NCBI RefSeq assembly: GCF_030440425.1
Contig: NZ_CP098023.1
Location: forward strand, 4,361,001-4,425,000
Length of the DNA: 64,000 bases
Direction: 5' to 3'
DNA from: Microbulbifer sp. MI-G
Lineage (GTDB): Bacteria > Pseudomonadota > Gammaproteobacteria > Pseudomonadales > Cellvibrionaceae
The translations under genes and the position numbers were made by a program. Shown here piece by piece: positions 28,238 to 49,438 of this stretch (positions within the stretch are counted from its first letter, which is position 1; each line of letters begins with the position of its first letter). The notes beneath the pieces were generated by a model. The model was given only the letters and a program-made list of their open reading frames with translations. It was not told where the DNA came from and ran no database searches.

Positions 28238-28369
28238 TCAAGTGCATTCTCTGGAATCCACAGGAAAATGTATTTACATTTCAAAAATAAGTGCTAGTTT
28301 ATGAAGTTGGCCGGTTGCACTGATTCCACTTGAAAGGTCACAGCTCTGCTATCTGTTCAATGAGTATGT

Positions 28370-28834: not shown

Positions 28835-28900
28835 CAGCCCAACTTTATAGCACACACCATACCCTATGGCCTGTCTACTTATACAGAGCGTAGAGGCAAT

Positions 28901-29533: not shown

Positions 29534-29630
29534 TTTTTAGCCCTGGTGTTTCAAACTCTGTGTTAACCAAATAGTCCCACTGGTTGACCTATCTCTCGAC
29601 TTTATTCCGCTTGCTGTAGATCTCTCAGTC

Positions 29631-29969: not shown

Positions 29970-30002
29970 TGTCAAACTGGCTGCTTGAGATCACAGTCGC
30001 TT

Positions 30003-30009
30003 GTTATAT
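30003..30009 (-). other. attC-like R' box (orphan, next to IS110 remnant)
   Basis: GTTATAT, identical to the R' box at 37623-37629 of the main array. It overlaps the stop codon of the small gene to its right, the same arrangement as in the array. The other half of the site is not recognisable and seems replaced by the IS110 remnant. Confidence 0.4.
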
Positions 30010-30318
30010 GCTGCCATAGCTGAGCTCCACCCCCAGCTTTTCATTAGCAATTCGCCATTTCAATATTTTTGAGGTGACCCAGGTGTCCTCACTTGAACTT
30101 AATTTACTTGGCGCTTCGCTTGTATCTACAGACCAATAAAAATTACCCGATTCAACTCCAAGGCACGCCTCATCGTTTATCTGATCGTAATTTTCAAGAC
30201 TTGGGACAATATTTATGCGAGTAACCTTTTCAAACAACAACTCAATACACGAGGGATCTTCAAATTGTCTCTGAATAACGAACACTATAGAAGTATCTAG
30301 CTCACCACTACATGTCAT
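30004..30318 (-). CDS. Hypothetical protein (possible isolated gene cassette)
   Basis: 104 residues, acidic; no family recognised. No signal or membrane segment. Its TAA stop lies inside a GTTATAT box, as in several cassettes of the 36.6-45.7 kb array. This suggests an isolated cassette left downstream of glmS. The start at 30318 is the first ATG of the frame and unsupported by a strong ribosome binding site. Confidence 0.45.
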   Translation of the reverse strand: MTCSGELDTSIVFVIQRQFEDPSCIELLFEKVTRINIVPSLENYDQINDEACLGVESGNFYWSVDTSEAPSKLSSSEDTWVTSKILKWRIANEKLGVELSYGSI

Positions 30319-30446
30319 TGAGTGGTTTTCACGTACTCTGTGTTTGGTTCACATGTGAGCTTCTTTTTAACACTAATCCAGGCCATGAAAGACACTCCCC
30401 AAGTCACATAATGCCGTGCACACTGGTCGGAAATATGAACGCGGGA

Positions 30447-30474
30447 TTACCAGCCCGCTGGGCCAGGCTGGTAA
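30447..30474 (-). terminator. Stem-loop downstream of glmS
   Basis: A perfect TTACCAGCC / GGCTGGTAA inverted repeat with a 10-nt loop, 17 bp after the glmS stop. There is no T-run on the glmS strand, so termination is plausible but not typical. Confidence 0.45.
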
Positions 30475-30490
30475 ACAGGCAGTGCCTGCT

Positions 30491-32320
30491 TCATTCCACC
30501 GTAACCGATTTGGCCAGATTCCTCGGCTGGTCCACATCGGTCCCTTTCAGTAACGCCACATGATAGCTGAGCAATTGCAAGGGCACCGTGTAAAGAATGG
30601 GTGCCAGGCTCTCGGGGGCATCCGGCACCTCGATCAGGGTAAGCCCCTCCTCACTGGCAAATCCGGCCTTGGGGCTGGCGAAGACAAACAGCTGCCCACC
30701 CCGGGCGCGCACTTCCTGCAGATTGGACTTGAGCTTTTCCAACAACTCATTATTCGGTGCCACAACAATTACCGGCATATCCGCATCCACCAGGGCCAGG
30801 GGACCGTGCTTGAGTTCACCGGCCGGGTAGGCCTCGGCGTGGATATAGGAAATCTCCTTGAGCTTCAATGCCCCCTCCAGCGCGATGGGGAACTCTACCC
30901 CGCGCCCGAGGAAGAGCGCGTGGTTTTTCTCTGCAAAAGCCTCACTGGTATGCCGCACAATTTTGTCCAGGGCAGTGAATGCTGCCATCAGCTGCGGCAG
31001 CTGGTGCAAGGCGCGCACCAGTTCGGCCTCGCGCTCGCTGGAGAGCCCATTGGCCCTGGCCAGCGCGATACAGAACAGCTGCAGGGCCACCAGTTGGGTA
31101 GTGAAGGCCTTGGTGGAAGCCACTCCAATTTCCGGGCCGGCCTCAGTCATCAGGGATAATTCTGATTCACGCACCAGGGAACTATTGGGTACATTGCAAA
31201 TGGTCATGGAAGCCAGATAGCCCAGTGCCCTGGCCTGGCGCAGGGCCGCCAGGGTGTCCGCTGTTTCCCCCGACTGGGAAATGGTGACAAACAGGGTTCC
31301 GGGGCGCACCACGGTTTTGCGATAGCGCAGTTCGCTGGCCACTTCCACCGCACAGGGCACCCCGGCCCAATCCTCCAGCCAGTAGCGGGCCACCATACCC
31401 GCATGGTAGCTGGTACCACAGGCGACAATCTGCACCTGCTCCACTTGCGGCAGAATCTCCCGGGCGCGGGTTCCCAGCGCCTGGGACAACACCGAGTGTT
31501 CGCCAATACGCCCTGCCAGGGTCGCTGCCACCACTTGCGGCTGCTCGAAAATTTCCTTCTGCATATAGTGGCGGTAACGGCCCTTGTCGGCTACGTCATG
31601 GCCACCATCCAGTTTATGTACCGGGCGGCTGACCACGTCGCCCCGCTTGTCGCGCACAGAGATACCGCTGCGACGCACCTCCGCGACATCGCCCTCTTCG
31701 AGAAAGAGAAAGCGATCAGTTACCTGGCGCAGGGCCATGGGGTCTGAGGCAATAAAGTTTTCCTCTATGCCGGCACCCAAAACCAGGGGGCTGCCGTAGC
31801 GGGCGCAGGCCAGGACATCCGGCTCCTCACTGCTGATAACGGCAAGGGCATAAGCGCCCTCCAGCAGCTGCGTGGCCTTGCCTACGGCATCCACCAGGCT
31901 GAGTCCCTCTTTGCTCAGTGAGTGAATCAGGTGCGCCACTACTTCCGTGTCGGTATCTGAGGCAAATTGATATCCCTTCCCCTGGAGCTCGCAACGCAAT
32001 GCCTGATGGTTTTCAATAATACCGTTGTGCACCAGGGCGATAGGCCCGGACATATGCGGATGGGCATTTTCATTGGAGGGAACCCCGTGGGTGGCCCAGC
32101 GGGTGTGCGCAATGCCCTGGTGGCCCTCGGCAGGCCTCTCCTGCAGTTTGGCCTCCAGATCGGCAACCTTGCCCAGGCTCTTGCGCAACTGCAGCCGACC
32201 ATCCCCATTGCGCAGGCAAACGCCCGCCGAGTCGTAGCCCCGGTATTCCAGTCTCCTCAATCCCTCCAGCAGAATTTCAGTGACATTGCGTTGTGCAAGG
32301 GCGCCAACAATTCCACACAT
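30491..32320 (-). CDS. glmS: Glutamine-fructose-6-phosphate aminotransferase
   Basis: First step of UDP-GlcNAc synthesis. 609 residues. The N-terminal glutaminase domain starts [10 protein letters not shown], with Cys2 as nucleophile. Two SIS sugar-isomerase domains follow ([31 protein letters not shown], and [19 protein letters not shown]). The C-terminus ends [12 protein letters not shown], the usual glmS tail. It follows the DeoR regulator by 53 bp and is probably cotranscribed. Confidence 0.98.
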
Positions 32321-36546: not shown

Positions 36547-36673
36547 CGGGCTATTCCTTTTTGTTCCCGAAGCGCAAGTTTAACGGACACGAGGACGAAC
36601 TGAACCGGTGCGAAGTGAGAATACCCGCCGGAATTTAAAACGCCACCGGACTATTTCTGATAATGCAGTCACT

Positions 36674-36830
36674 GCCAGTGCGGTGTTGGAGCCAATAAAG
36701 CGCCATCGTCAGTTTCACTGAAGGACCTGTCTGCAATATCGCAGTTGCACATGACGGTGTCGGCGCCAACATTCGCCGTCCCCACGGTTCTATCGTCCAT
36801 ATAGGAGAGGTGATTGACTTTGCTGCCAGC
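36674..36830 (-). pseudogene. Decayed fragment of glmU (fragment A)
   Basis: Aligns along its length with glmU 47990-48149, same orientation, roughly 80% identical by eye with a one-base deletion. It translates as GSKVNHLSYMDDRTVGTANV, then GADTVMCNC, against GSKVNHLSYVGDAAVGEAVN in GlmU. It is joined upstream to an unrelated hydrophobic peptide (ALVFLAGMAFGYFLRDGLEP, about 36850-36919). It cannot encode a working left-handed beta-helix. Confidence 0.8.
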
Positions 36831-36975
36831 CCTTGGGAACCGACCATATCTGGCTCGAGACCATCTCTTAAGAAGTAACCAAACGCCATGCCAGCCAAAA
36901 AAACCAGAGCAGAGAGCAAGCAGGTAACTTTTCTTGCACATTGTATTGCGATTGTCTCTTTCAGCCTTTAAAGCT

Positions 36976-37031
36976 GTGTAACGCCGCAAGCAGCAGCGCT
37001 GTCAGTATTCAATGCTTTTGCCTGTTAAAGG
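36976..37031 (-). other. Putative attC site
   Basis: R'' GTGTAAC (36976-36982) and R' GTTAAAG (37024-37030). Inner arms GCAAGCA and TGCTTTTGC pair imperfectly. It lies 36 bp beyond the stop of the NTF2-like gene. Confidence 0.6.
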
Positions 37032-37065
37032 GCAAGCTCATTCTAGCTTTCCAACAATAGTAGTT

Positions 37066-37473
37066 TTAAAGTTTATGACTCCTCCAAATTTCTTTCCCTT
37101 CTGGCGTTTTTCCGGGTGAAGTTTTATATCTAATTAATTTCCACTTAGTTTCTTTTTTCTCTACAATAAATTGAACTGATTGCCATTGGTATTCTCCTGT
37201 AAAAGTCACTTCATAGCGCGACTTATTTTTTTTAATGGCATGGATAGAAACAGCGGAGTTTAGGTTGTTGTACCGAGAGGGTTGGCCAAAGTTTAGCCCT
37301 GACAGGGTTCGGTTATTATCTCCATGAGCATATTGTTCAAATAAAGCATTAAAGTCTGATTCAAAGCCATTTTCTCTATAAGAAGTATCTTCAAAGCCCC
37401 TGGCTTCTAATTCATCTGCCTGTCTGGCAAACTCTTTACATAAAGCAATAATTTCTTGTTCTTCCAAATTCAT
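37066..37473 (-). CDS. Cassette gene, NTF2-like fold protein (immunity-like)
   Basis: 135 residues; helical N-terminal half (LEEQEIIALCKEFARQADEL), then alternating beta strands (YEVTFTGEYQWQSVQFIVEK, ETKWKLIRYKTSPG). This layout and the C-terminal WRSHKL resemble NTF2-fold immunity proteins of polymorphic toxin systems; the match is by pattern only. AGAGG lies 8 nt before ATG 37473. It forms a cassette with the attC at 36976. Confidence 0.55.
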   Translation of the reverse strand: MNLEEQEIIALCKEFARQADELEARGFEDTSYRENGFESDFNALFEQYAHGDNNRTLSGLNFGQPSRYNNLNSAVSIHAIKKNKSRYEVTFTGEYQWQSVQFIVEKKETKWKLIRYKTSPGKTPEGKEIWRSHKL

Positions 37474-37570
37474 AAGTTCTACCTCTTGTATCATAAAAGC
37501 CACTCAAACAATGAAAAATAGGTAAGCGACCGTATTAAGTGGTTTTTCACCAAATGTCCTCAGCACAGCC

Positions 37571-37629
37571 AAGCAACTTTTTGCGAGTTCAGCGCACAAA
37601 GTGCGCGGTTTTTCGCGCAATTGTTATAT
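37571..37629 (-). other. Putative attC site
   Basis: AAGCAAC (37571-37577) and GTTATAT (37623-37629). TTGCG and CGCAA arms pair exactly, with a second inner hairpin GCGCAC/GTGCGC. It directly abuts the stop of the gene to its right. Confidence 0.7.
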
Positions 37630-37630
37630 G

Positions 37631-37861
37631 TCACAGGCACTTCTTGATTTCAACATCCCTCGCATATGATTCCCATGCGGCCCTACACTCTGGAAGCACT
37701 TGATAATAATGATATGTTGAAACTGAAGCTGTGCAGGCCTGATATGGGGCGCAAGCAGCTTTCACAAACCCGGTTTTCTCTTTTTGATACTGCTCGGTTA
37801 ATTCATATGTAAGCGAGAAATCAGACAACAAAACCATCAGTGCAACCAACAAATATTTCAT
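37631..37861 (-). CDS. Cassette gene, small exported cysteine-containing protein
   Basis: 76 residues: a signal peptide (MKYLLVALMVLLSDFSLTYE) and a mature part with four cysteines (AACAPYQACTASVS, LPECRAAWE, and a terminal KKCL), suited to two disulfides in the periplasm. No family recognised. ATG 37861 is chosen because the signal starts there. Confidence 0.6.
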   Translation of the reverse strand: MKYLLVALMVLLSDFSLTYELTEQYQKEKTGFVKAACAPYQACTASVSTYHYYQVLPECRAAWESYARDVEIKKCL

Positions 37862-37867
37862 AAAAAC

Positions 37868-37941
37868 ATATAACACCGTAATAATCGGTAACCACCGCTA
37901 TGCATCGCCTGACCGGTGGGGGCTCAGGCTCAGACTTTGAT
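37868..37941 (-). other. Degenerate attC-like site
   Basis: ATATAAC at 37868-37874 fits R''. The other end is only CTTTGAT (37935-37941), one base off the consensus. An inner CACCG ... CGGTG hairpin is present. It sits at the expected cassette boundary. Confidence 0.4.
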
Positions 37942-38478
37942 TCATCGCCTTGTTTTGGGAATTTTGCTCAGTACCTTTGCTTTTTTGAACCTTCGTACTT
38001 TCGTACGGATATTTTTCATTGGGGATGAAGTATTAAACTGAATCATTCTTCCCAACGTGTAGCTTTTATACCAACTTTGGGCATAAAGTTCATTATTACT
38101 CAGAGAATCGATAAGCTGCAAAATTTGATCGATGGTTAATTGAAACTCTGATAGTAGCTGTTCATAACCCCAGTTTTGATACTGAACGTGGAAATGTTCG
38201 GCTAACTGGCCCAGCTCATTCCAGTTATACCCTGTTTCAGGGAAATCGACTTCAAGTTTGTTTGATTTAAACTTGTACCATTTTAGAACAAGTTTCCCCC
38301 AACCAATCAAGTATGCAAGTGTATCGCAAACACTGATTTCGGTGCCTTTAATGTTTCCTTCAACGCCAATTTCCCGTGAATATTCTTTTGGAATATCTAA
38401 ATAATCCGCAAGAAGTTTGTCAAAAGCAGTTTGGATCGCTTGAACTAACTCTTCTTTATTCTTGGGTATTGATGACAT
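37942..38478 (-). CDS. ClbS/DfsB (DUF1706) family four-helix protein
   Basis: 178 residues. It starts MSSIPKNKEELVQAIQTAFD and contains the family pattern (TEISVCDTLAYLIGWGKLVL, WYKFKSNK). It ends in the typical YTLGRMIQFNTSSPMKNIRT segment followed by a basic tail. ClbS of E. coli protects DNA against colibactin by hydrolysing its cyclopropane warhead. The family is often carried on accessory DNA. Whether this member detoxifies anything is unknown. ATG 38478 gives the standard start; a longer in-frame extension crosses an attC-like palindrome and is rejected. Confidence 0.82.
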   Translation of the reverse strand: MSSIPKNKEELVQAIQTAFDKLLADYLDIPKEYSREIGVEGNIKGTEISVCDTLAYLIGWGKLVLKWYKFKSNKLEVDFPETGYNWNELGQLAEHFHVQYQNWGYEQLLSEFQLTIDQILQLIDSLSNNELYAQSWYKSYTLGRMIQFNTSSPMKNIRTKVRRFKKAKVLSKIPKTRR

Positions 38479-38506
38479 AGCTGATTGTTCCCATAATACC
38501 TGCAGT

Positions 38507-38580
38507 ACAGGCCCCGCTGTGGCAAAGCTACGCTTTGATCGGTCCAGCACGGAGAATGATTGTGCCTGCGCGAGTTAAAA
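38507..38580 (-). other. Degenerate attC-like site
   Basis: R' GTTAAAA at 38574-38580 and a central hairpin CAAAGC tac GCTTTG. A convincing R'' is missing. It separates the ClbS/DfsB gene from a decayed frame. Confidence 0.35.
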
Positions 38581-38760
38581 TTTTTACCCTTCTCAATCAA
38601 ATCACTTGTAAAGTAGCAATAAGTTTCATCGAGGCTGTTAAGATAGAAAAGCACTTTCTATCATACATCTCATAAACTGTACAAATAATTCCCGGGTCGG
38701 GTGGCCAGTCTATTGCCTTATCAATGAATCCGTCTTCAAGTGGAACTTGAGCCAGTTTTA
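38574..38760 (-). pseudogene. Decayed cassette gene
   Basis: Two overlapping frames read as one protein after a frameshift near 38650: VPLEDGFIDKAIDWPPDPGI, then YLNSLDETYCYFTSDLIEKG. No start codon with a ribosome binding site remains. No family recognised. Confidence 0.4.
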
Positions 38761-38847
38761 CTTACCAGGTGGGCTCAGAATTGTCTTCTTTACATGTATC
38801 GGTTTGTATGATTGGGATAATGAACTCCAACTCTTCCGCGTCCGGTA

Positions 38848-38921
38848 CGTGGGTGAACTTGGTGTCGGCAGGCGGCCCTTACCGCTTTCACCGGTGCACC
38901 ACTGCGGTATTGGAATCGATA
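38848..38921 (-). pseudogene. Decayed fragment of glmU (fragment B)
   Basis: Matches glmU 47930-48012 in the same orientation, about 80% identical by eye with one single-base and one short gap. It translates as IDSNTAVV before a frameshift, against IGSNTALVAPVKVG in GlmU. It covers the part of glmU immediately C-terminal to fragment A, overlapping it at SNTAL. Confidence 0.65.
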
Positions 38922-38983
38922 GTCGTGCGAAGCATGGAGCGACCGGCTGAGGCCCGTAAAGACGGAACGTATAGTATCAACTT

Positions 38984-38990
38984 GTTATGT
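38984..38990 (-). other. attC-like R' box
   Basis: GTTATGT, containing the TAA stop of the small membrane protein gene on its right, as in the other cassettes. The partner R'' is not clear; GGTGAAC near 38852 is a candidate. Confidence 0.4.
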
Positions 38991-39167
38991 ACAAACAACC
39001 TCATTATCGTTTTCGTCGTTGCGTGAAAGCATGCCTGCCCATCTCCTAAGTCCATGCTCCACGATAAAAACCAGAAAAACGATCGTTACAGCCAATAGGC
39101 ACTTGGGCAGAGAGAAGGCTATAACAATTCCTCCCGCTAAAAGAGCAGGTAAAATTATGAAAAAAAG
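38985..39167 (-). CDS. Small cassette membrane protein, start unclear
   Basis: A 60-codon frame with two hydrophobic stretches (IILPALLAGGIVIAFSLP, LLAVTIVFLVFIVEHGL) and a charged tail ending NDENDNEVVCT. There is no ATG or clear alternative start after the upstream stop; a T7 run there suggests a frameshift has separated the start. Possibly a broken gene. Confidence 0.4.
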   Translation of the reverse strand, partial: LFFIILPALLAGGIVIAFSLPKCLLAVTIVFLVFIVEHGLRRWAGMLSRNDENDNEVVCT

Positions 39168-39251
39168 TCAATATGACGCTGTAACGTACGTTCCATTCAT
39201 AGGTTAAGTTTTTAAACCCCATTCCACATAACTTGTCATGTTTGCTATGGG

Positions 39252-39352
39252 CACATAACACTGCCAGCAACAATTGGAGTGTATTGGCGGCTTTTTTGTA
39301 TTTTCAAAAAAGGGCCAGGTTTACCAGGACTGAATACTATGACTTGTTAAGA
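39252..39352 (-). other. Putative attC site
   Basis: ACATAAC (39252-39258) and GTTAAGA (39346-39352). The central long hairpin TGGCGGCTTTTTTG / CAAAAAAGGGCCA gives a VCR-like length of about 100 bp. The R' box overlaps the stop of the gene on its right. Confidence 0.5.
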
Positions 39353-39757
39353 CTGCTCACTGGTGACCAGCTCTAGTAGCTTTGCATTGTACGCTTGAGC
39401 ATAATACTTATTGTACTCATGACTGCCCATATCAAGTGCAAAGTTCTCAATATGTATCCCCGCGCCACAGATGAGAAAATTTCTTGGTGCAAACTCCTTT
39501 AGTTCCCCCTCCAGTGCTGATTTAGGAATACCTGGCACTGTGTACCCCTCGTCGGGAATAAAGACCTCCACAAACTTCTTGTGATCCTGGCGGTAGTCAG
39601 TGAGCGCTTCCGAGAAACCGCGATTGGCTGACGTGACTGGGTCATTTGCTATCGCAATTAGCTCATTGCTCCGGGTAATTTCAACCCAAACCCAAGCGAT
39701 TACACCTGCCAAAAGAGCCACACCTAAGAAAAAGGTGTTTTTAACGGTTGTAACCAT
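39347..39757 (-). CDS. Cassette gene, membrane-anchored hypothetical protein
   Basis: 136 residues. One N-terminal membrane helix (TFFLGVALLAGVIAWVWVEI), then a soluble domain of about 105 residues outside the membrane. The single cysteine in FLICGAGIHIENF and the motif EYNKYYAQAYNAKLLELV are the only notable features. No family recognised. TAA stop lies in the R' box of the attC on its left. Confidence 0.55.
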   Translation of the reverse strand: MVTTVKNTFFLGVALLAGVIAWVWVEITRSNELIAIANDPVTSANRGFSEALTDYRQDHKKFVEVFIPDEGYTVPGIPKSALEGELKEFAPRNFLICGAGIHIENFALDMGSHEYNKYYAQAYNAKLLELVTSEQS

Positions 39758-39763
39758 ATTGAC

Positions 39764-39845
39764 CCTTAACCCTTACCGCACAGGCGAGCAACTCTGTTGC
39801 AAGCCAAGCCACGAAGTGGCTGATTGTATCTGAGCTTGCTAAATG
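39764..39845 (-). other. Putative attC site
   Basis: CCTTAAC (39764-39770) and GCTAAAT (39839-39845, one mismatch to consensus). It shares GGCGAGCAAC...GTTGCAAG with the attC at 44836-44898, so the two are related. Central hairpin AAGCCACGAAGTGGCT. Confidence 0.55.
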
Positions 39846-40306
39846 TATGGACCATTGTCGATGACCCATGACCTTAGCTCCATGGCACTGCGAACGTTTG
39901 CAGGGAACTTCCATCTATTTAAAGCAAGCTCAGGCAGGTTTTTCTGAGGGTAAGCTACGTGATCCGTTCCGATTCTCAGGACAGTATTGGAGATAGCTAG
40001 AATCCTGTATAAGAATTCAGCAACATTCTGCGTGAACTCTCCATGTTCTATCGCGAATGCTGAGTTTCTATTTTGGGGATTGAGCCCAAAGTCCTGGATA
40101 TTGATGAAACTCCCATCCTTCGTTGGAACGTATCGATACCCGTCCTGTCCTACATGTGTACCACCCAGGAATACTAAATAAGCCCTAAGGTCTTCGGCTT
40201 CCTTCTCAGTCAGTGGAAAGTCAACATGTGAGTAAACGACCTCGCCAGTGAACGGATGAGTTCCTTTTCTCGTTCTTGTCGTGAGATTTAGCGTATGTAT
40301 TTCCAT
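39839..40306 (-). CDS. Cassette gene, hypothetical protein
   Basis: 155 residues, soluble. It starts MEIHTLNLTTRTRKGTHPFT. Contains LTEKEAEDLRAYLVFLGGTH and RYVPTKDGSFINIQDFG. No signal, membrane helix or recognised family. The following 230 bp to the right contain a terminator-like hairpin and no clear gene. Confidence 0.55.
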   Translation of the reverse strand: MEIHTLNLTTRTRKGTHPFTGEVVYSHVDFPLTEKEAEDLRAYLVFLGGTHVGQDGYRYVPTKDGSFINIQDFGLNPQNRNSAFAIEHGEFTQNVAEFLYRILAISNTVLRIGTDHVAYPQKNLPELALNRWKFPANVRSAMELRSWVIDNGPYI

Positions 40307-40464
40307 GCAGATAAGTACATTTAAATACCGGTCACTATGGCCACCATTATCCTGATTACTGACCCGGAATCAATTCTGCGCAACTTACCCACAATCTGCA
40401 TTAGAAACAGTTAGTTATATAGATATGGCACAATCGTACAAAATATGATCACCCTCTCCGGCGT

Positions 40465-40490
40465 AAAAAACCCGGCTCAGTGCCCGGTTT
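40465..40490 (-). terminator. Terminator-like hairpin inside the array
   Basis: On the minus strand, AAACCGGGC actga GCCGGGTTT with one mismatch, followed by a T-run. It may end transcription of the small frame at 40539-40703. Confidence 0.6.
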
Positions 40491-40538
40491 GGGTGGCTGG
40501 ATAAAAGCAGCTAGCGCCGCCCTGCGAAGGGCCCCAGC

Positions 40539-40703
40539 TTATTGCTTGCGCTTATTATTTCCCTGAATGCTGGTAAACAACCCATTATACCTTTTAACCT
40601 GTTTTGGCAGAGTGAGTAATGTATGTAATGCTGACAAAGTAAATACTCCAAACACTATACACCAGCCCAAACCACGACTGATTATATTGCCAAGATAGGC
40701 CAC
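40539..40703 (-). CDS. Small cassette membrane peptide
   Basis: A 54-codon frame from GTG 40703. It has one hydrophobic segment (GWCIVFGVFTLSALHTLLTL) followed by a basic tail (PKQVKRYNGLFTSIQGNNKR). No ribosome binding site is obvious, and it overlaps the end of the HAD-like fragment. It may be a real small gene or part of a rearranged cassette. Confidence 0.35.
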   Translation of the reverse strand: MAYLGNIISRGLGWCIVFGVFTLSALHTLLTLPKQVKRYNGLFTSIQGNNKRKQ

Positions 40704-40771
40704 ACCAACTCAGATTCGTCTGCATGAATCAAAGTTTCGTCTAATTTGAGTATCAGTAACTTTCTTTTCAT
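40682..40771 (-). pseudogene. N-terminal fragment of a HAD-type phosphatase
   Basis: A 29-codon frame beginning MKRKLLILKLDETLIHADE. This is the opening motif I (normally DLDETL) of NIF/CTD-type HAD phosphatases. Motif I itself is altered (first Asp to Lys), and the rest of the domain is gone. Truncated cassette gene. Confidence 0.5.
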
Positions 40772-40784
40772 GTCTGCTCAAAAA

Positions 40785-40853
40785 ATGTAACGTCCCAACC
40801 AGCGAAAATAGGAGCGTAGCGAGTATTTTTCCGTTGTGTTGGTTTGTTAGGGC
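40785..40853 (-). other. attC site (best example)
   Basis: R'' ATGTAAC (40785-40791), L'' CCAAC, central arms AAAATA/TATTTT, L' GTTGG, R' GTTAGGG (40846-40852). All four boxes pair in order with the correct spacing, and the central loop GGAGCGTAGCGAG is typical. It lies 10 bp beyond the trypsin-like gene stop. Confidence 0.85.
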
Positions 40854-40862
40854 AACTTACTG

Positions 40863-41708
40863 TCACTGTACTTCTATAGAAGCACATAGTTCATCCATGT
40901 TTTTAGATTTCATATTGTCCTGGAGAAAAGGATTCTGAGTGGTAATATTTTCTCTCGCCAAATCGTCTTTAGCCGAGATCACTTGTTGTATCCAATCTCT
41001 ATAAGATGAAACCCTGGTGTATAGTTCAGTGACTCCATATTCGCCAACATCATAAAACCATGAATCGGTACGTGAACTGACACCGAGTAATACATATTTA
41101 TCTCCCTCCCTAATATAGGCCGGCCCACCACTGTCACCATTTCCAGAAACCCCTTCCAGCACTTCTCCTTTTGAGCCTTTTTCAAAATTAAAAACGATAT
41201 CGGTATCAGTTACTCTAATTATTTTGTTTTGGGCTTTTCTCAATCTACCGTTATTTTCCTTGTAGCTGATTGTCTGTCCATTTTGACCAGTTCCTGTCCC
41301 ACCTACACCTATGAACCAAGCTACTTTTCCCTTTTCAAAATTATCATCATATAATTCAGCCGGCTTAATATGTGTGACAGGTGAGCTAAGCTTGATTAAG
41401 GCTATGTCGTTCTCTCTTCCCAACTCATATTTAGGGTGAGCATATCGATTTGAAATAGATACTATTTCATTTCCGACATTAATTTTCTGTCCAGGATTCA
41501 TGCAAAACACAGCATGAGCTGCAGTAACAACCCATTCAGGATCAATAAGGGTTCCGTGAACGCCAATGCTGTACAAGGTTGCTAACGGAGGGAAGTCAGA
41601 AGGGACTGCGTAATAACTTTCGTCAGAAACATCATGCCGAATGACAATTGCATCAGCTGCAGATGTAATAAGACTCACTGTTAAAATCAAGAATTGAGAA
41701 ATTTTCAA
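40863..41708 (-). CDS. Trypsin-like S1 serine protease, secreted (cassette gene)
   Basis: 281 residues from TTG 41708. AAGGAG lies 7 nt upstream and the signal peptide (KISQFLILTVSLITSAADA) starts there, so TTG is preferred over the longer ATG frame that reads through an attC site. The catalytic triad is complete: WVVTAAHAVF (His), ENDIALIKLSSPV (Asp), GNGDSGGPAYI (Ser). A C-terminal extension follows the protease fold. S1 proteases are unusual cargo for cassettes. Substrate unknown. Confidence 0.85.
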   Translation of the reverse strand: MKISQFLILTVSLITSAADAIVIRHDVSDESYYAVPSDFPPLATLYSIGVHGTLIDPEWVVTAAHAVFCMNPGQKINVGNEIVSISNRYAHPKYELGRENDIALIKLSSPVTHIKPAELYDDNFEKGKVAWFIGVGGTGTGQNGQTISYKENNGRLRKAQNKIIRVTDTDIVFNFEKGSKGEVLEGVSGNGDSGGPAYIREGDKYVLLGVSSRTDSWFYDVGEYGVTELYTRVSSYRDWIQQVISAKDDLARENITTQNPFLQDNMKSKNMDELCASIEVQ

Positions 41709-41729
41709 ATGAAACTCCTTCTCTAGGTG

Positions 41730-41848
41730 CTCTAACTCCCACAACAGGGGGGCGGATAATGCCATGCATTTTTTGTACAAAATGGGAGCATATCGACCGC
41801 ACAAAACATGCACAGCGTTGACCGTCCCTTTGCTTGTGTTTGTTATGA
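41730..41848 (-). other. Putative attC site
   Basis: CTCTAAC (41730-41736) and GTTATGA (41842-41848), with L'' CACAA and L' TTGTG pairing exactly at 3-bp spacing from each R box. About 119 bp, VCR-like. The R' box contains the stop codon of the gene to its right. Confidence 0.7.
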
Positions 41849-42271
41849 ACATACCTGCTCATCGGTAATCATATGCGACGCATACCCCGTACTCCTAATT
41901 GATATACTTCCACGAAGAACGCAATCTGGGTAACCATAATCGAACCTTGCAGTAAAAATTACATCAGTGACGGTAAACCCTTCATCAATATGACTAGTTG
42001 ACAGTGAAAAACTGGAGGGATTAATGCCTTTGAAATTCTCTAAAACGCTGGATGGTATCTGAATTTTCTTACCATTAAGAACGAACACCATCTCTTTAAT
42101 ATTGTCGTCTCTCTTCGAAAATTCAGACTTTAGGTGAAGATCAAGCTCTAGCATACCAAGATTCATCGGGAGTAATTTTTCATAACTCATTTTATCCCAC
42201 CACCAATACTCATCTTGCGACGCAAATACTGATATCGAGATAAACAGGAAAATTAAAGCGAGTGTTTTCAT
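41843..42271 (-). CDS. Cassette gene, secreted hypothetical protein
   Basis: 142 residues: signal peptide MKTLALIFLFISISVFASQ, then a mature domain with DEYWWWDKMSYEKLLPM and two cysteines (PDCVLRGS, EQVCS). No family recognised. ATG 42271 is preferred; the longer frame upstream is translation through the neighbouring attC. Confidence 0.6.
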   Translation of the reverse strand: MKTLALIFLFISISVFASQDEYWWWDKMSYEKLLPMNLGMLELDLHLKSEFSKRDDNIKEMVFVLNGKKIQIPSSVLENFKGINPSSFSLSTSHIDEGFTVTDVIFTARFDYGYPDCVLRGSISIRSTGYASHMITDEQVCS

Positions 42272-42295
42272 TGGTGCTTTCAGCTCAAAACATCT

Positions 42296-42377
42296 CAATA
42301 ACCCGCAGCTGACACGTAGCGAATCGGAGTATAAGCTGTTGAGCGCCGAAGGCGCGAAGTTGATTGATTTGTTAGGC
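42296..42377 (-). other. Putative attC site
   Basis: CAATAAC (42296-42302) and GTTAGGC (42371-42377), with imperfect inner arms (CAGCT / AGTTG) and a central GAGCGCCGAAGGCGCG hairpin. R' contains the stop codon of the decayed gene to its right. Confidence 0.65.
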
Positions 42378-42730
42378 TTCTTCATCGCAAGGAATTAAAA
42401 ATTTAGGACTTACACCAGGAAAATTCTCAGAGCCTCCTTCAAACCAATATGGCTTGTGGTGCACATAACTAAACAATGGCAACTCTACCTAAAAATCTTG
42501 CCCATTGATTGAGATTACTCCTCGAACAACCCAGAATCTTCCAACAGTACCCCAACCATGGTGTACAAGTTTTGTGAAGTAGAATTCTGTCTCCACTTCT
42601 ACTGGAAATAGCATCGTACGTTGTTTTCAAAAGCCAGCCGGTCAAACTTTAGTTTATCAAAGGTTCTCTTATTTTGAAGATAACTTGCCCAGTCATTAGG
42701 AAAGCCACCTAACCCCTGTGCTTGGATGTT
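42372..42730 (-). pseudogene. Decayed cassette gene cut off by the IS3 element
   Basis: Three successive frames read as one protein after two shifts: QGLGGFPNDWASYLQNKRTF, then VEVETEFYFTKLVHHGWGTV, then FEGGSENFPGVSPKFLIPC. It ends in a TAA within the attC R' box. The 5' end is missing at the IS left end. No family recognised. Confidence 0.55.
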
Positions 42731-42757
42731 TGATCTGCTACCACTTTCGTGGACACT

Positions 42758-43564
42758 TTATGCCGCCATTTTTTCATACTCTAACGGCGATTGGTAGCCG
42801 AGACTGGAGTGAATCCGCTCTCGATTATAGAACTCGATATACTCGATGATATGGGCCACCGCGTCGATTTCATTTTCAAATAAACGCTGGTGAACGAGCT
42901 CTGTCTTCATACTATGGAAAAAAGATTCCACAATAGCATTATCCAGTGGATTCCCCTTTCGATTCATGCTTCTTCTCATACCCGCTGACTCAACAAGCTC
43001 TCGGTACTCATGTGCCGCGTACTCGATCCCCTGATCGGAATGGAATATACATCCTGCTTGTGGACGCTGACGCGCCAGAGCCATCTTAAGTGCGCTTTTC
43101 GTCAGCTCGCTATTCCGTTTTCGGCTGAATGACCAGCCGACGACTGATCTTGTGTATAGATCGATTACCACCGCGTGATATAGCCATCCAGCCACAGTCT
43201 TTATATAGGTAAAGTCACCAGCCCACTGAGTACCAACAGAAACAGCTGGATCCTCACCACCAAGCTGATTTCCCGTGGCAGAGTAAAATTTATGCTTACC
43301 AGGGTTCCAGGTATAAAGCCCTCTGCTAGAAGCCTTTATCCCAACCGTCTTCATAAGTCGGGATACACGCCTGACGCTACAGGATAAGCCGCTACGCTTT
43401 GGCTGCTGGTGCACTCGACGTGCTCCGTAAGCCTTTCTGAATCCTTGGTGTAGCTCCACAATAGCGTCCGTAAGGAGGCGATCGTGCTTACGCCGTTCAC
43501 TCTCTTCACGATTGCGCCAAGCGTAGAAACCGCTCTTAGACACACTCAGCAGACTACACAACAT
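42758..43564 (-). CDS. IS3-family transposase OrfB (DDE integrase core)
   Basis: 268 residues from the first ATG, with the rve core: WAGDFTYIKTVAGWLYHAVV (first Asp), IFHSDQGIEYAAHEYR (second Asp) and NAIVESFFHSMKTELVHQ (Glu). In intact elements OrfB is made by a -1 frameshift from OrfA at an A-rich slip (GGAAAAAGTAA near 43615). The OrfB frame itself is intact and opens upstream to that point. Confidence 0.92.
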   Translation of the reverse strand: MLCSLLSVSKSGFYAWRNREESERRKHDRLLTDAIVELHQGFRKAYGARRVHQQPKRSGLSCSVRRVSRLMKTVGIKASSRGLYTWNPGKHKFYSATGNQLGGEDPAVSVGTQWAGDFTYIKTVAGWLYHAVVIDLYTRSVVGWSFSRKRNSELTKSALKMALARQRPQAGCIFHSDQGIEYAAHEYRELVESAGMRRSMNRKGNPLDNAIVESFFHSMKTELVHQRLFENEIDAVAHIIEYIEFYNRERIHSSLGYQSPLEYEKMAA

Positions 43565-43611
43565 TCTAACGTCACGTCCCTTGTGGTTCTTCTCAACCAG
43601 CTCGAAGAGCT

Positions 43612-43980
43612 TTACTTTTTCCGTTGGAAGAACCGCTCGGCCTTTTTTAGCAAATCAATCTCATCGTTCCGATTGGCCAGCTCTCGTTCAAGCTTCTTGA
43701 TCTTCTTTTCCGCAACAGCGAGCTTGTCTTCGGCTTCGCGAACAGGATCTGTTCTACCAGGTCGGCGCTTAAGCGATAGTTTAGATGGCTTCATATATTT
43801 ATTTTCCTTCAGCTCTCCTCGGCGGTGCTCCATCTACCATCGATATAGCATCACAGAATGTATGCCGAGGGATTCTGCCACATCCTTTGACCTAACGTCA
43901 GGATGATTGGCCAACTTAACGGCTTGAAGCTTGTAAGCCAAAGTGTAACGGTCGTAGTTTCTCTTTTTTGTTTGCCCCAT
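43612..43980 (-). pseudogene. IS3-family OrfA with an in-frame amber stop
   Basis: Starts at ATG 43980 (MGQTKKRNYDRYTLAYKLQA) with the helix-turn-helix KDVAESLGIHSVMLYRW. A TAG stop (43834-43836) follows, directly before MEHRRGELKENKYMK, where a lysine or similar codon is expected. The distal part carries the leucine-zipper-like helix (EDKLAVAEKKIKKLERELAN). The element is therefore probably unable to make full OrfAB without suppression. Confidence 0.85.
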
Positions 43981-44034
43981 TCTGATCCTCCTTCATGAAC
44001 AGTAAATACCGTCCACGAAAGTGGTTACAGATCA

Positions 44035-44086
44035 CCGAGCGAAGCGAAGGTCCAGCCGAAGGCGAACATGCTTAACCTTGTTAGGG
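44035..44086 (-). other. attC site truncated by the IS3 element
   Basis: R' GTTAGGG (44080-44086) and part of the inner hairpin remain. The R'' half and the start of the next cassette gene are missing at the IS right end. R' lies 4 bp from the SUKH gene stop. Confidence 0.6.
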
Positions 44087-44089
44087 CTT

Positions 44090-44815
44090 TCACCACTCAA
44101 CCTCTGTTAGTTTGGCCATAAAGTCATTAAAGGAATTTGCCACTGGAACAAATCTATTTCTCAACAGTTCGAATTCGCAATCTTCAGGCAAACTTTCTAA
44201 ACTGTTTATGACTTGATAGGGTTCAAATTCAGACAATTCATTTGTTTTCTTTATTTGGCTTCGATCAAAGCCATATTTTTCTAGGGTATTTAACAGTTTC
44301 TGTTCGTAGTAACAGTGACCAAACTTTTCCAGCATAAATTTACGACCGAATATCGAATACATATAGCCGTCATAATAGTAATAGACCTGACCAAAATCTC
44401 TTTGGTCTGTGGATATTGCAAAGAGACTACCAGATGATTCTTCCTCGTATGCGAAAGACATCATATTGTCAGGAAGAATATCAAAATTTTCTTTAGAGTT
44501 TTCATTAGAGGCAAACAGCTCTGGCCAGTTTGTATTTGAAGGTTCATTACCGTCAAAACGGTCATACCAAACGCCAAAAATGCCTGCCACATCTGCCTTT
44601 TCTATGAATGGCAAATCAATTTTAAGCTGTATTCCGATTTCCAATTCGTCATCATTAGGCGAAAATATACAGCCGTTTGTTTCTTGCAGAAAATCGCCAT
44701 ATTCACTTGGAAATTTATTGTATCCAAATCTTTCTTTAAGGCGATTACTAACGTCCAAAATATCATCTGGAGTTAACGAAGGAAATTGAGGTATAACCTC
44801 TATATTCTTGAACAT
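44090..44815 (-). CDS. SMI1/KNR4 (SUKH) domain protein
   Basis: 241 residues. The N-terminal SUKH pattern is clear: DVSNRLKERFGYNKFPSEYG, DFLQETNGCIF, ELEIGIQLKIDLPFI and a later PDNMMSFAYEEESSGSLFAI. SUKH proteins are the largest family of immunity proteins against polymorphic toxins, though many members stand alone. No toxin gene is adjacent. Cassette gene with the attC at 44035 on its left. Confidence 0.82.
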   Translation of the reverse strand: MFKNIEVIPQFPSLTPDDILDVSNRLKERFGYNKFPSEYGDFLQETNGCIFSPNDDELEIGIQLKIDLPFIEKADVAGIFGVWYDRFDGNEPSNTNWPELFASNENSKENFDILPDNMMSFAYEEESSGSLFAISTDQRDFGQVYYYYDGYMYSIFGRKFMLEKFGHCYYEQKLLNTLEKYGFDRSQIKKTNELSEFEPYQVINSLESLPEDCEFELLRNRFVPVANSFNDFMAKLTEVEW

Positions 44816-44835
44816 GTTTAGATTTCTTTAAAGTG

Positions 44836-44898
44836 TCCTAACGCCCGCAGCAAAGGCGAGCAACTTGTTGCAAGTACTGTTGCTTGCGCTTGTTAGCC
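44836..44898 (-). other. attC site
   Basis: TCCTAAC (44836-44842) and GTTAGCC (44892-44898), 63 bp. Inner arms GCAGCAA and TTGCTTGC pair with one bulge, and a central CAACTTGTTG hairpin is present. The R' box contains the stop of the DUF2262 gene. Confidence 0.78.
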
Positions 44899-45735
44899 TG
44901 AGATACCTGCTTCACTAAGGCCATCAGTTAGTGAACCAGAAATTACAATCGAATGCCCCAAGAACATGTCACCATCATCATGACAAAACTCGAATTTTCC
45001 ATCAGGATAAACAGTAATAAATAGCAACTCCATCGAATTAATAAAATCTGACGCAGTAAATTCCTTTTGCCCTTCAAGCCAATTCTCATTCATTACTTCA
45101 AGGAGTTCAGAAACTGCATAGTCCGCAATTTTCTTAGACCAATCACCAGATTGGCTATACAGAGCCTCTATAGTTTTTAGACTACTACTGATAGAACCAT
45201 CTTCTTCATCTACAGAGACCGAAAGTTCTACTGGCTCTCCCTGCCAATTTATTCTGCCTTCAAAACAATCTAACGACCTATCAAGCACTAAGACACCAAA
45301 CTCCGGGTGGGTAACTTCTACTGGCTCTTTATATTTTTCTAGTGCTGCTTTAAGTTCAATGTCATCCGGGGTATCTAAAATGGATAATAGTTGTGCTCTA
45401 GCATCACCGAACGGACTCTCTTTTGAGAGCTTAACTTTAAATTGCACCAAGGATTCTCGCTCAACGTGATCTTGAATAAGTTTTAACTCGTTGTAAGTAA
45501 GTTCATTCGAAAAAATGAGAGGTGAATTGTTTATTTTTTTTCCAAGCTCTTTCCAGGCTATTAGAGATAGTTTCAATGACCAGTATTCATCTCCCGGAAC
45601 TTTGCCTGCTCCTCGCTTATTACCTACTGCACCACGAGCTCCAACAACACCTGTTATTATTGTTTCTGGCAGCTCAGCGAATTCTCTATGAAGTTTTTCC
45701 TTTTTAATAGAGGTATCTTCAAACATATCTTCCAT
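44893..45735 (-). CDS. DUF2262 domain protein (cassette gene)
   Basis: 280 residues, acidic. The C-terminal half fits DUF2262: PEFGVLVLDRSLDCFEGRIN, WQGEPVELSVSVDEEDG, and near the end SMELLFITVYPDGKFEFCHD, DGDMFLGHSIVISG. The N-terminal ~120 residues form a separate region. DUF2262 proteins occur near immunity-type genes, but their function is not established. Its start lies 5 bp from the stop of a truncated frame, so the two once formed a pair. Confidence 0.72.
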   Translation of the reverse strand: MEDMFEDTSIKKEKLHREFAELPETIITGVVGARGAVGNKRGAGKVPGDEYWSLKLSLIAWKELGKKINNSPLIFSNELTYNELKLIQDHVERESLVQFKVKLSKESPFGDARAQLLSILDTPDDIELKAALEKYKEPVEVTHPEFGVLVLDRSLDCFEGRINWQGEPVELSVSVDEEDGSISSSLKTIEALYSQSGDWSKKIADYAVSELLEVMNENWLEGQKEFTASDFINSMELLFITVYPDGKFEFCHDDGDMFLGHSIVISGSLTDGLSEAGISG

Positions 45736-45740
45736 CTACC

Positions 45741-45968
45741 TCATTCCCCAATAAGGCTAACCTTTATATACCGATCGCCATAACCAGTACTTCCTTGATC
45801 AGTATTTCTGGATTCTTTTTGTGCCAAAATTTCAAAACCCCAATTGTAATCAATTAGATAAAATAATTTCGCACTATCAAACCACCTGAAATCATAATCA
45901 CTGCAACCATTATCCCAAAAATCACCAATAAATGTAACCCTCCGGATTTCTTCAATTTTCAGGAGAAG
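45741..45968 (-). pseudogene. 5'-truncated gene upstream of the DUF2262 gene
   Basis: About 72 codons from EEIRRVTFIGDFWDNGCSDY to STGYGDRYIKVSLIGE, ending 5 bp before the DUF2262 ATG. No start codon remains and an in-frame stop precedes it. The protein is aromatic-rich; no family recognised. It marks the right-hand edge of the cassette array. Confidence 0.5.
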
Positions 45969-46108
45969 TTACCACTCTCTCAAAAATACCGCTCGGGTTG
46001 ATCAAATTGTCCTTTCGCACTCGGTTAAAGCATCGGTAGAGTCAAAGCTATTAATTACAGGTTTCTCTCAATGGATGCTAATCCCAATCCTGTTCCTCTG
46101 TATTCTTT

Positions 46109-46477
46109 TCACTTTATGGATCTTTTGCAGACCTGAAAACTTTCCGTGTCACTAAAGTACGGATTGGACAGAACACAAGGCTCCAGCCTGGTGTCCTTAT
46201 CCACTGTAACAAATTTCGCTGTGCGCGATTTATCGGATAAACATATCGCCAACCCCCGCGCTAATAATAAGTTAAGTGGGTGAATGGCCCCTCTCAGATC
46301 CTCTACAAACCCGCGGCTCAGTGCAAAGCCAGTGTCACGTTTTTTGTGTTCCAGTGCTGGAAGCCATAGCCCGCAGCAAGAGAAATAACCTTCACAGTGA
46401 AGCAAGCGGATTCGCTGCGGGCCTGGTGCCAGGCTGCCAGTCAATGCCGGTAAACGCCAGAGGGAGAGCGCTGGCAT
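46109..46477 (-). CDS. Unrecognised open frame, doubtful
   Basis: 122 codons. The C-terminal ~75 residues look protein-like (GFALSRGFVEDLRGAIHPLN, KSRTAKFVTVDKDTRL), while the N-terminal part is low-quality and overlaps a palindrome. It may be the remnant of a longer gene. The flanks (45969-46108 and 46478-46621) show no other gene. Confidence 0.25.
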   Translation of the reverse strand: MPALSLWRLPALTGSLAPGPQRIRLLHCEGYFSCCGLWLPALEHKKRDTGFALSRGFVEDLRGAIHPLNLLLARGLAICLSDKSRTAKFVTVDKDTRLEPCVLSNPYFSDTESFQVCKRSIK

Positions 46478-46483
46478 TACCGG
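46447..46483. repeat. Long imperfect palindrome
   Basis: CCGGTAAACGCCAG and CTGGCATTACCGG around a 10-nt centre. It has no T-run, so it is not a classic terminator. It lies about 140 bp downstream of csrA. Confidence 0.5.
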
Positions 46484-46621
46484 TATATTTCACACATCGG
46501 AATTTTGGAAAACAAATCACTGAAAGACGGTATGGGGTATGCGTATTGGGCATTCTCAAGCAATACGCAGCGGCGGCTACACAGTATTGTTGACAGGCTC
46601 CCCCACTGGGCGGCCGGTTTC

Positions 46622-47840: not shown

Positions 47841-49208
47841 TCACTGGCGTTTTTTTTTGGCCGGGTGCTGCCAGCCGGTGATATTGCGCTGTCTGCCCCG
47901 CGCCACGGCCAGCTCGTCCGCGCCCACTGCGTGGGTGATTGTGGAGCCGGCACCCACGGTGGCGCCCCTGCCCACTTTTACCGGTGCCACCAGTGCGGTG
48001 TTGGAGCCGATAAAAGCGCCGTCCTCAATTTCGGTGAGGGATTTGTTCACACCATCGTAGTTGCAGGTGATGGTGCCGGCACCGACATTCACCGCTTCCC
48101 CCACGGCGGCATCGCCCACATAGGAGAGGTGATTGACCTTGCTGCCAGCACCGATGGTTGCTTTCTTGATCTCGACAAAGTTGCCCACCCTGGCGCCTGT
48201 GGCCAGCCGGGTTCCGGGGCGCAGGCGGGCAAAGGGGCCGATGCTGCAGGCTTCGCCAACCTCGGCCTGCTCAATCACGGAATTGGCCTCCACACGGGTG
48301 CCATCCGCCAGGCGGCAGTTCCTCAACAGGCAGTTGGGACCGATCTGTACGCCCTTGCCCAGGGAGACGGTGCCCTCAAAAATACAGTTGATGTCGATGG
48401 CTACATCGGTGTCGCATTCCAGGCTGCCGCGGATATCAATCCGCGCCGGGTCCAACAGGGTGACCCCCGCATCCATGAGTGCCACAGCGCGGGTGTGTTG
48501 CAGGGCGCGCTCCATCTGCGCCTGCTGTGCGCGACTGTTCACCCCCGCCACTTCCAAGGCATCGCTGGCGCGCACCCCGGTGACGGCGATCTCCTCACTC
48601 ACCGCGCGGGCGATCACATCCGTGAGGTAGTATTCACCCTGGGCATTGTCGCAGGACAATTCAGGCAACCAGCGCGCCAGCAGTTCCGCCGGCGCCGCCA
48701 GTATGCCGGTATTCACCTCGCGGATGCCGAGGGTGGCCGCATCGGCATCCTTCTCTTCAACAATCGCCTGTACGCGGCCCGCATCATCGCGCACTATGCG
48801 TCCGTAGCCGGCGGGGTTGGCCATCTCTACCGAGAGCAGCGCCGGGCCTTTATCCGCCGCTGACAACAGCGACTGCAGGGTGCCCGCCTTGACCAGCGGC
48901 ACATCGCCGTAGAGTACCAGCACCGAGGCCCCTTGGCGGAAATGGGGAATTGCCTGTGCCACAGCATGGCCGGTACCCAGTTGCTCCGCCTGCTGCACAA
49001 ACTGCACGCCGCTGTCGGCAAAGCGGGCCTGCACCTGCTCGGCACCGTGCCCCACAACCACGGTGATACGCACTTCTTCAAGCTGTCTGGCCGTTTCAAT
49101 CACGCGTCCCAGCATGGGGATTCCACCGATCGGGTGCAGTACCTTGGGCAACCCGGAACGCATGCGCGAGCCCTTGCCCGCTGCCAAAACCACAACATCA
49201 ATAGTCAT
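47841..49208 (-). CDS. glmU: Bifunctional GlmU (GlcNAc-1-P uridyltransferase / GlcN-1-P acetyltransferase)
   Basis: Makes UDP-GlcNAc. 455 residues from ATG 49208. The N-terminal pyrophosphorylase has VVLAAGKGSRMRSGLPKVLH, YGDVPLV and the GYGRIVRD region. The C-terminal left-handed beta-helix has hexapeptide repeats, GSKVNHLSYVGDAAVGEAVN and TITCNYDGVNKSLTEIEDGA. In many relatives glmU is followed by deoR-glmS; here about 14 kb intervene. Confidence 0.98.
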   Translation of the reverse strand: MTIDVVVLAAGKGSRMRSGLPKVLHPIGGIPMLGRVIETARQLEEVRITVVVGHGAEQVQARFADSGVQFVQQAEQLGTGHAVAQAIPHFRQGASVLVLYGDVPLVKAGTLQSLLSAADKGPALLSVEMANPAGYGRIVRDDAGRVQAIVEEKDADAATLGIREVNTGILAAPAELLARWLPELSCDNAQGEYYLTDVIARAVSEEIAVTGVRASDALEVAGVNSRAQQAQMERALQHTRAVALMDAGVTLLDPARIDIRGSLECDTDVAIDINCIFEGTVSLGKGVQIGPNCLLRNCRLADGTRVEANSVIEQAEVGEACSIGPFARLRPGTRLATGARVGNFVEIKKATIGAGSKVNHLSYVGDAAVGEAVNVGAGTITCNYDGVNKSLTEIEDGAFIGSNTALVAPVKVGRGATVGAGSTITHAVGADELAVARGRQRNITGWQHPAKKKRQ

Positions 49209-49438
49209 CTTGAATCCAAATCCCGCTAGATCAGTCAACCGGGGCGCATTGTGGCCAGTCTGCCCCGCGAACTCAAGAGCGCCTCACTCCAGCGCAGCAG
49301 GTTGGCGCTCAACGCATTTGGATTGCCACGCGCCCCCTGGACCGGTAGCTTACCCTCTGTAAAATCAACAAGTTGCCTACTCAATACGCACACACAGAGC
49401 CGTCGTGCCAATAACAACATGGCGGGGGGAAAGTTATC

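Follow-up and report, generated by a model that had tools for sequence, protein, structure and literature searches.

Clusters of attC sites lacking integron integrases (CALINs) are defined as two or more attC sites with no neighbouring intI (PMC9024848), and their origin is debated: both the degradation of integrons and insertions in trans have been proposed for these common clusters. The part of PMC9024848 that concerns us takes up the earlier idea that CALINs arise by degradation of integrons, and states that attI sites outside class 1 are poorly described and are not detected by IntegronFinder. The relevant portions of PMC9024848, PMC12444791, PMC12901181 and PMC9892861 already describe CALINs that stem from degraded integrons, chromosomal integrons that have been inactivated, arrays with pieces of attI inside them and phages that carry integron parts. 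Here we describe a cassette array that lies at about 37–46 kb of a 64,000-nucleotide stretch (the window) of the genome of Microbulbifer sp. MI-G (G000 below; 4.48 Mb in 2 contigs, 99.99% complete). We argue that this locus is a decayed chromosomal integron that has lost its integrase gene intI, a reading to which we give a probability of about 0.85.

The head of the array is an attI. In one integron type of the genus, called type B hereafter, the stretch from attI to the first codons of intI aligns end to end (377 bp) with the region 45757–46134. Four of 20 attI regions match it (L083 with a score of 97, L086 with 85, L080 with 84 and L085 with 77, the best of 200 shuffles reaching 35–42), and the remaining 16 score 21–32, which is the level of the shuffles. 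In the alignment to the congener G093, 222/369 positions are identical (z score 24.6 over 200 shuffles); the attI (copy 1) and its promoter region occupy 45757–46070 on the minus strand. From these alignments, we conclude that the array starts at a real attI and that the adjoining gene (44893–45735, minus strand; DUF2262, PF10020, E 5e-35, and DUF7021, PF22886, E 7e-14) is its first cassette.

What is left of intI adjoins this site on the plus strand (46071–46136). It consists of 21 codons followed by a stop, matches residues 1–35 of IntI in tblastn (E 0.003), and resembles the DNA of intI up to ATG+62. The start of intI reads MDANPNPVPLYSFHFMDLLQT in the window, then comes the stop; two relatives have MDDIPIPIPKSSSRFMDRLRTF. 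The closest sister species, G102 (pdhA 95% identical; draft of 260 contigs), has the same attI/intI relic without the stop. A tblastn search of 46138–46620 for more of intI returned just a 9-residue echo (E 2.5), which we do not claim.

The initial annotation had described the array as a CALIN, and no integron integrase was found in the whole genome: with the family model of integron integrases, nothing in G000 exceeds the cut-off, and the IntI of a relative used as a query finds nothing better. Three weak matches to the family model were seen; two of them, the best included, fall in a single protein, which is recognised with much higher scores as XerC/XerD, and the third lies within a phage-integrase-like protein. 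By comparison, intI exceeds the cut-off in 113/144 genomes of the family, and a match to IntI at E ≤ 1e-40 is present in 43 of the 48 genomes of the genus, those without it being G000, G088, G097, G102 and G105. As a separate observation, the congener G105 carries two truncated intI, on its contigs C13 and C14, and no intact one. Since no integrase was found in the genome, the cassettes could be moved only if an integrase arrived from outside; that they are "trans-mobilised" is possible. The usual definition of a CALIN does apply, with four attC sites on the same strand and no intI found in the genome, but this label misses the attI, the intI stub, a second attI and a duplication of glmU. We regard the locus as a degraded integron, not as an orphan attC cluster, because it retains attI and the intI stub.

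The attC sites were searched with a covariance model built from relatives. Hairpins were gathered by a motif-plus-fold rule from the 20-kb array-side stretches of 20 intI genes of the family; 17 of the 20 stretches gave 106 sites, all on the expected strand, of which 63 were left after the removal of near-duplicates. The model (R1) consists of 33 sites chosen by hand among these 63, from intI-adjacent arrays of relatives, none of them from the window. The training sites covary (93.7% of cells paired, versus a mean of 65% for shuffled alignments, a value reached by 0/500 shuffles), a figure that is biased upward by the selection of the sites for their fold. Searching both strands of the 64 kb with filters off, R1 finds four attC sites at E below 1e-4 (1.2e-6 to 6.1e-5), within 4.2 kb and on the minus strand only: 40785–40852 (29.5 bits, E 6.1e-5), 41730–41848 (32.6 bits, E 1e-5) and 44836–44898 (36.5 bits, E 1.2e-6), whose cores are intact, and 42285–42377 (30.4 bits, E 3.7e-5), in which the R' core has changed from GTTA to GTTT. 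The site at 41730 is 77–83% identical to sites of many congeners, several of which are near intI. The best match to R1 outside the array has 14 bits (E 0.42 in the 64-kb window).

Three other sites, also on the minus strand, match attC-type repeats in the arrays of relatives by blastn (best E 1e-13, 4e-9 and 9e-10 for 37571, 39252 and 39764, respectively), and the places that match them best are R1 hits in their own right. At 37565–37630 (83% over 65 bp to an attC in L079), the R' core is destroyed; at 39252–39352 (78% over 72 bp to an attC in L081), the core is intact by eye; at 39764–39835 (82% over 62 bp to an attC in L079), the R'' core is mutated from AAC to AGC. The minus strand also carries half an attC cut by an insertion sequence (IS) at 44035–44086 (12.3 bits, E 1.1), and a weak site at 36976–37030 whose core, TAAC/GTTA, is intact by eye and whose R1 score (9 bits, E 7.2) is on its own not beyond chance. 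The four sites with damage visible by eye in the core are those at 37571, 39764, 42285 and 44035. The window sites resemble several different attC types of the relatives, and are not the near-identical sites of a sedentary integron.

Nine attC positions had been proposed in the initial annotation, and a covariance search of the kind that it called for returned several significant sites on one strand. Four positions are thus recovered by R1 and three by likeness to relatives, 44035 is a half site, and 36976 stays weak. The RYYYAAC…GTTRRRY consensus by which they had been described did not hold literally, since a strict scan of the window recovers 0/9 positions; a looser scan gives 2/9 on the minus strand, plus two matches on the plus strand. 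The covariance model replaced these scans because both are too rigid. G000 also has other, dispersed attC clusters: its genome gives at least 26 matches (E ≤ 10) in about ten clusters, with 150 of 763 first-look candidates scored.

The array sits between two pieces of the same gene. The intact native glmU (named by eye) is at 47841–49238 on the minus strand, and its identity to relatives is even along its length except for the last ~50 nt; its closest named protein is the GlmU of Microbulbifer sp. HZ11 (77%, records very near the window having possibly been left out). At 36675–36830, on the same strand and adjoining pdhA, is a relic of the 3' end of glmU, which aligns over 160 bp with 79% identity to the genome's own glmU. 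The intact gene and the relic are 11 kb apart and the array is in between. Among the congeners, pdhA is present in 47, and its upstream side was compared in 15: glmU lies within about 105–350 bp before pdhA in 14 of the 14 other than G102, and in G102 likewise a decayed glmU end precedes pdhA, reaching to about nt 1033 of the gene. The array had been placed between a pdhA-type operon and csrA/glmU; its real setting is the inside of a partial duplication of glmU. Such a layout is the product of a single crossover or of a partial duplication, not the signature of an integrase; we infer that a single crossover was its probable origin.

This setting also bears on another explanation, according to which the array is a plain CALIN, whose cassettes were inserted by a trans-acting integrase at a non-classical chromosomal site (attG), no integron platform having ever been present. 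Insertion at attG has been described (in parts of PMC12901181 and PMC12444791), and both the failure to find intI in G000 and the other dispersed attC clusters of this genome agree with it. However, attI and the intI stub are at the head of the array, and the edges of the array are pieces of glmU instead of a simple junction between cassette and target. Insertion at attG was dropped once attI and the glmU duplication had appeared, and we now consider this explanation highly improbable.

Relatives provide a series of intermediates. Copies of the attI were searched with a sequence model (R2) of 19 rows, 15 from arrays of G000 and G102, one from the window and three from beside intI; R2 favours the copies of G000 and G102, because most rows come from their arrays. 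In G093, the scoring of 150 of 816 candidates gave at least 76 attC matches (E ≤ 0.1). These group into 14 clusters of at least two sites, three with intI and 11 without, and four of the latter are headed by a copy of the window-type attI. Five of the six R2 matches of G093 (one of which is the attI beside intI) are found 284–457 bp before the first attC of the same strand, compared to 0.37% for random positions; the sixth has no attC near it at E ≤ 0.1. More broadly, we chose 14 loci (L268–L281) from R2 matches in G093, G108, G084, G098, G092, G000 and G102, and in ten of them an attC of the same strand lies no more than 1.7 kb downstream, with none upstream (the misses are L273, L274, L275 and L281).

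Beside this attI, intI is lost to different degrees. In L276 (G092), residues 1–52 and 119–326 are kept in different frames, as a result of an internal deletion and a frameshift; in L268, the likeness of the DNA extends 124 bp into intI; in L269, L270, L274, L275, L277 and L279, it stops 27–67 bp before the start codon, and in the rest it is shorter. The stages thus range from an intact gene through L276, the 124-bp stub of L268 and the 62-bp stub of the window to none. The origin of the array from a degraded integron can be read directly here, with intermediates of intI loss beside copies of the same attI.

We propose that an integron with this specific attI type came to sit inside the partial glmU duplication, and that cassettes were captured at attI by the integron integrase, which would have been active at that time. 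Thereafter, intI would have been lost save for its first 21 codons, and the array would have decayed: mutations changed attC cores, one attC was interrupted by an IS3-family element, and the end on the pdhA side came to run into the glmU relic. A second promoter–attI module in the middle of the array, better kept than the first, would head cassettes of its own. The order of these events is what we infer from the present state of the locus.

Several observations weigh against a decayed integron. The intI stub is short and its protein identity is 43%; a first tblastn search with 13 IntI proteins across the locus missed it, and it came to light solely through the DNA alignment of the attI regions. 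The stub of L268, similarly, gives no tblastn match at 0.01 and is seen as DNA only. Promoters are predicted in the array no more often than by chance (19 predictions, 19.1 expected); a possible Pc promoter is suggested by the likeness between copies. In favour of a decayed integron, on the other hand, the same attI type is beside an intact intI in relatives: in G093, G108, G094 and G107, the type-B integron, with an intI of 326–333 residues, is at an nqr-sthA-thioesterase locus, whereas the array of the window is at glmU and not at the locus conserved in these relatives. The nqr-sthA-thioesterase locus of G000 and G102 contains no integron, and no intI remnant was found there (tblastn, best E 0.86); the integron either moved from the nqr locus or was acquired separately. 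Among the points against, lastly, G102 is a draft whose array and two glmU ends are spread over separate contigs, and differences in cassettes between G000 and G102 could come from differential loss instead of capture.

The second attI is contained in a 184-bp repeat (40317–40500) together with promoter-like sequence and a terminator-like hairpin, and is better kept than copy 1. The module itself, about 130 bp of promoter-like sequence and attI (40317–40444, minus strand; core 40317–40381), scores 71.3 bits with R2, of which it is one of the 19 training rows, and aligns to the attI region of G093 as far as position 170 of the latter. A hairpin with a run of T, resembling a terminator, lies upstream (40455–40491, minus strand), a pattern that also occurs before other copies; a simple scan did not pick it here. 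Before the hairpin is a half attC-like sequence (40545–40557, TAAGCGCAAGCAATAAGC...), with no clear gene. Similar halves come before such hairpins in L177 and L180.

This module is present in many copies. At E ≤ 0.01, R2 gives at least 40 matches in G000, at least 56 in G102 and 2–11 per genome in nine relatives; with a threshold of 45 bits, the numbers are at least 23, at least 29 and 1–7, respectively. All are lower bounds, 150 of 1400–1850 first-look candidates having been scored per genome. The likeness to the true attI region ends at positions 167–185 in 22/32 copies (exactly at 170 in 15), and earlier in the other 10. Since this border is shared, we consider that the copies correspond to a discrete module of about 130 bp. 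In loci of G000 and G102, 26/28 copies are at most 60 bp before an open reading frame (ORF) of 40 residues or more (46% for random positions), and 19 of the 28, copy 2 included, have the terminator-like hairpin upstream. The position before an ORF, the hairpin and the narrow border are what would be expected if the copies were moron promoters, mobile pieces that look like attI without being recombination sites. On the other hand, the 70-bp core next to the crossover shows strong conservation (column identity averages 85% in 19 copies, picked by likeness), and five of the six copies of G093 precede attC clusters of their own strand, as described above. We find the moron explanation doubtful, and regard these copies as putative attI sites.

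Many of the copies of G000 are in prophages. Among the 23 best, 14 are in four loci that contain phage lysis genes according to PHROGs (three in L179, four in L180, five in L153 and two in L181); the window copy is outside such loci, and the scan for lysis genes covered the neighbours of 14 others of the 23 copies. The order endolysin, units, HNH is found in L179, L176 and L180, the HNH of L176 being recognised by likeness and by a sub-threshold Pfam match. The same slot after endolysin holds an attI in G108 (L273), and in G093 (L271) an attI is beside a head protease. As a side observation, contig C2 of G000 (43,523 bp; L179, L282 and L283) is a phage that encodes a portal, a tape measure, an endolysin and a DnaB-like helicase, and carries three promoter-attI-gene-terminator units between endolysin and HNH. 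The module has no match in IMG/VR (searched with one exact degenerate pattern) nor among INPHARED phages, which speaks against a wide spread in known phages.

It may be asked whether the window array itself arrived in a larger element (a prophage, plasmid or island), which inserted by homology to the 3' end of glmU and was then eroded. The succession of full gene, insert, 3' piece and next gene is what a single crossover produces, and prophages of G000 carry attI copies of the same type as the second attI. Against this, none of the 10 array proteins compared with PHROGs matches a phage family whose function is known (one matches a PHROG of unknown function), backbone genes of such an element were not seen, and the type to which the intI stub and attI copy 1 belong is that of a chromosomal integron. 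PHROGs thus gives no support to a phage origin, which we rejected for the array; arrival in a larger element, in general, appears unlikely.

Returning to the decayed integron, we raise the possibility, on balance less likely than not, that the integron of this genus is a distributed system. One attI type, together with its promoter, would have been copied widely; it would head integrase-less arrays on the chromosome and, cut down to the module of ~130 bp plus terminator, form the prophage units. These units would be landing pads filled in trans by an integrase supplied by a host. Phages might in this way keep the cassette system alive after the loss of the integrase, and attI copy 2 of the window would be one such unit in a dead integron. 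The repeat unit of the prophages, located between endolysin and HNH, could similarly be promoter-attI-gene-(attC-gene)-terminator, a possibility that we hold with equal caution. If the prophage modules are true attI sites that work, they would offer an integrase-free route to keep and spread integron cassettes.

Regarding the content of the array, its GC is 38–45% (49% across the IS) and that of its flanks about 56–63%. Two further stretches of low GC, 22000–31000 and 53000–56000 (41–52%), are present in the window. On the minus strand, the array carries nine cassette ORFs, an ORF that is truncated and an IS3-family element, and no gene was counted on the other strand; the AT-richness and strand given in the initial annotation stand, and the count is slightly lower than the "about a dozen" genes announced there. 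At the pdhA end, the truncated small gene (36835–36940, within the ORF 36669–36989) runs into the glmU relic and has no Pfam match; we discarded its TM2-like identity, which was an impression by eye. Then come ORFs of 145 residues (37066–37503) and 81 residues (37631–37876), both of no known family, a DUF1706 protein (37942–38550; PF08020, E 7e-54) and an ORF of 136 residues of no known family (39347–39757). The first gene after attI copy 2 (39839–40306, 155 residues) starts 10 bp past the attI core. At higher coordinates are a trypsin-like protease (40863–41852; PF00089, E 5e-19), for which a role in anti-phage defence was considered and rejected, the match to LmuA (E 1e-12) most likely reflecting a shared protease fold, and an ORF of 180 residues of no known family (41843–42385). 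The IS3-family element (42730–44037, with ORFs 43612–43833 and 42758–43564; rve domain, E 6e-24) has related copies in the genus, and sits within the attC of the cassette that codes for a SUKH-like protein (SMI1/KNR4; 44090–44815; PF09346, E 2e-5, at its cut-off).

Beyond the intI stub, the segment 46617–47342 (minus strand) is a dispersed repeat made of a long conserved leader and csrA, whose product is a CsrA equivalog. This repeat of ~700 bp is found in nine places in G000, counting this one, the others being 72–85% identical and one partial; several relatives have it in six or more places each. Its long leader is strongly conserved and contains an ORF. In L272 and L278 the repeat is ~80 bp past an attC, and in L277, L279 and L280 it precedes attI copies on their upstream side. 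Rfam gives nothing above its gathering cut-offs in the window; the three matches in 46–48 kb are at chance level.

The cassettes differ between sister species. With an identity of 92%, G000 and G102 have in common glmU, csrA, the attI/intI relic and the DUF2262 and SUKH cassettes; their trypsin cassettes are 76% identical (over 894 bp of DNA); the cassettes in between are different in G102, and the likeness to the window ends at the edge of the IS, 44035. In the same array of G102, a fragment of reverse transcriptase (PF00078; L129, 9374–9838), by eye from a group II intron, is directly at an attC. A maturase of a group II intron is also near the attI copy of L275. The SUKH cassette (44081–44842) is 92.1% identical over 762 bp in G106, whose glmU and pdhA regions are 76–77% identical. 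This match, for one cassette only, extends by eye from one core to the next. Since it is shared at the cassette ends, the cassette must have moved between lineages, not necessarily recently at this locus.

To conclude, we compare the locus with the systems from which we started. Like the CALINs in the portion of PMC9024848 cited above, it has a cluster of attC sites on one strand and no intI, and unlike them it keeps an attI and a stub of intI. Because the usual software does not search for attI outside class 1, there may be misread cases among other CALINs. The inactivated chromosomal integrons of Xanthomonas, as presented in part of PMC12444791, are similar in that intI is truncated or deleted, the cassettes are kept and additional CALINs exist at other loci; there, however, the retained intI is nearly always at ilvD, whereas the array of the window is away from the locus of four relatives, and in its genome attI itself has been copied. 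Delta-attI-type cassettes, according to sections of PMC12901181, also have attI within an array, between an upstream and a downstream gene; they belong to mobile integrons, in which attC has given way to pieces of attI of 14–18 or 244 nt and in one case to a complete attI1, whereas here a promoter–attI module of ~130 bp with a terminator-like hairpin is found on chromosomes and prophages that lack intI. The multiplication of the promoter–attI module and the repeated single-gene units of prophages, in a species without integrase, seem unreported in the open-licence PMC literature that we searched, which does not prove their absence from print. As for integron parts in phages, the relevant passages of PMC9892861 likewise place attC, attI and cassettes on phages; the repeated promoter-attI-gene-terminator units between endolysin and HNH, which those passages do not describe, are what distinguishes the genome studied here.

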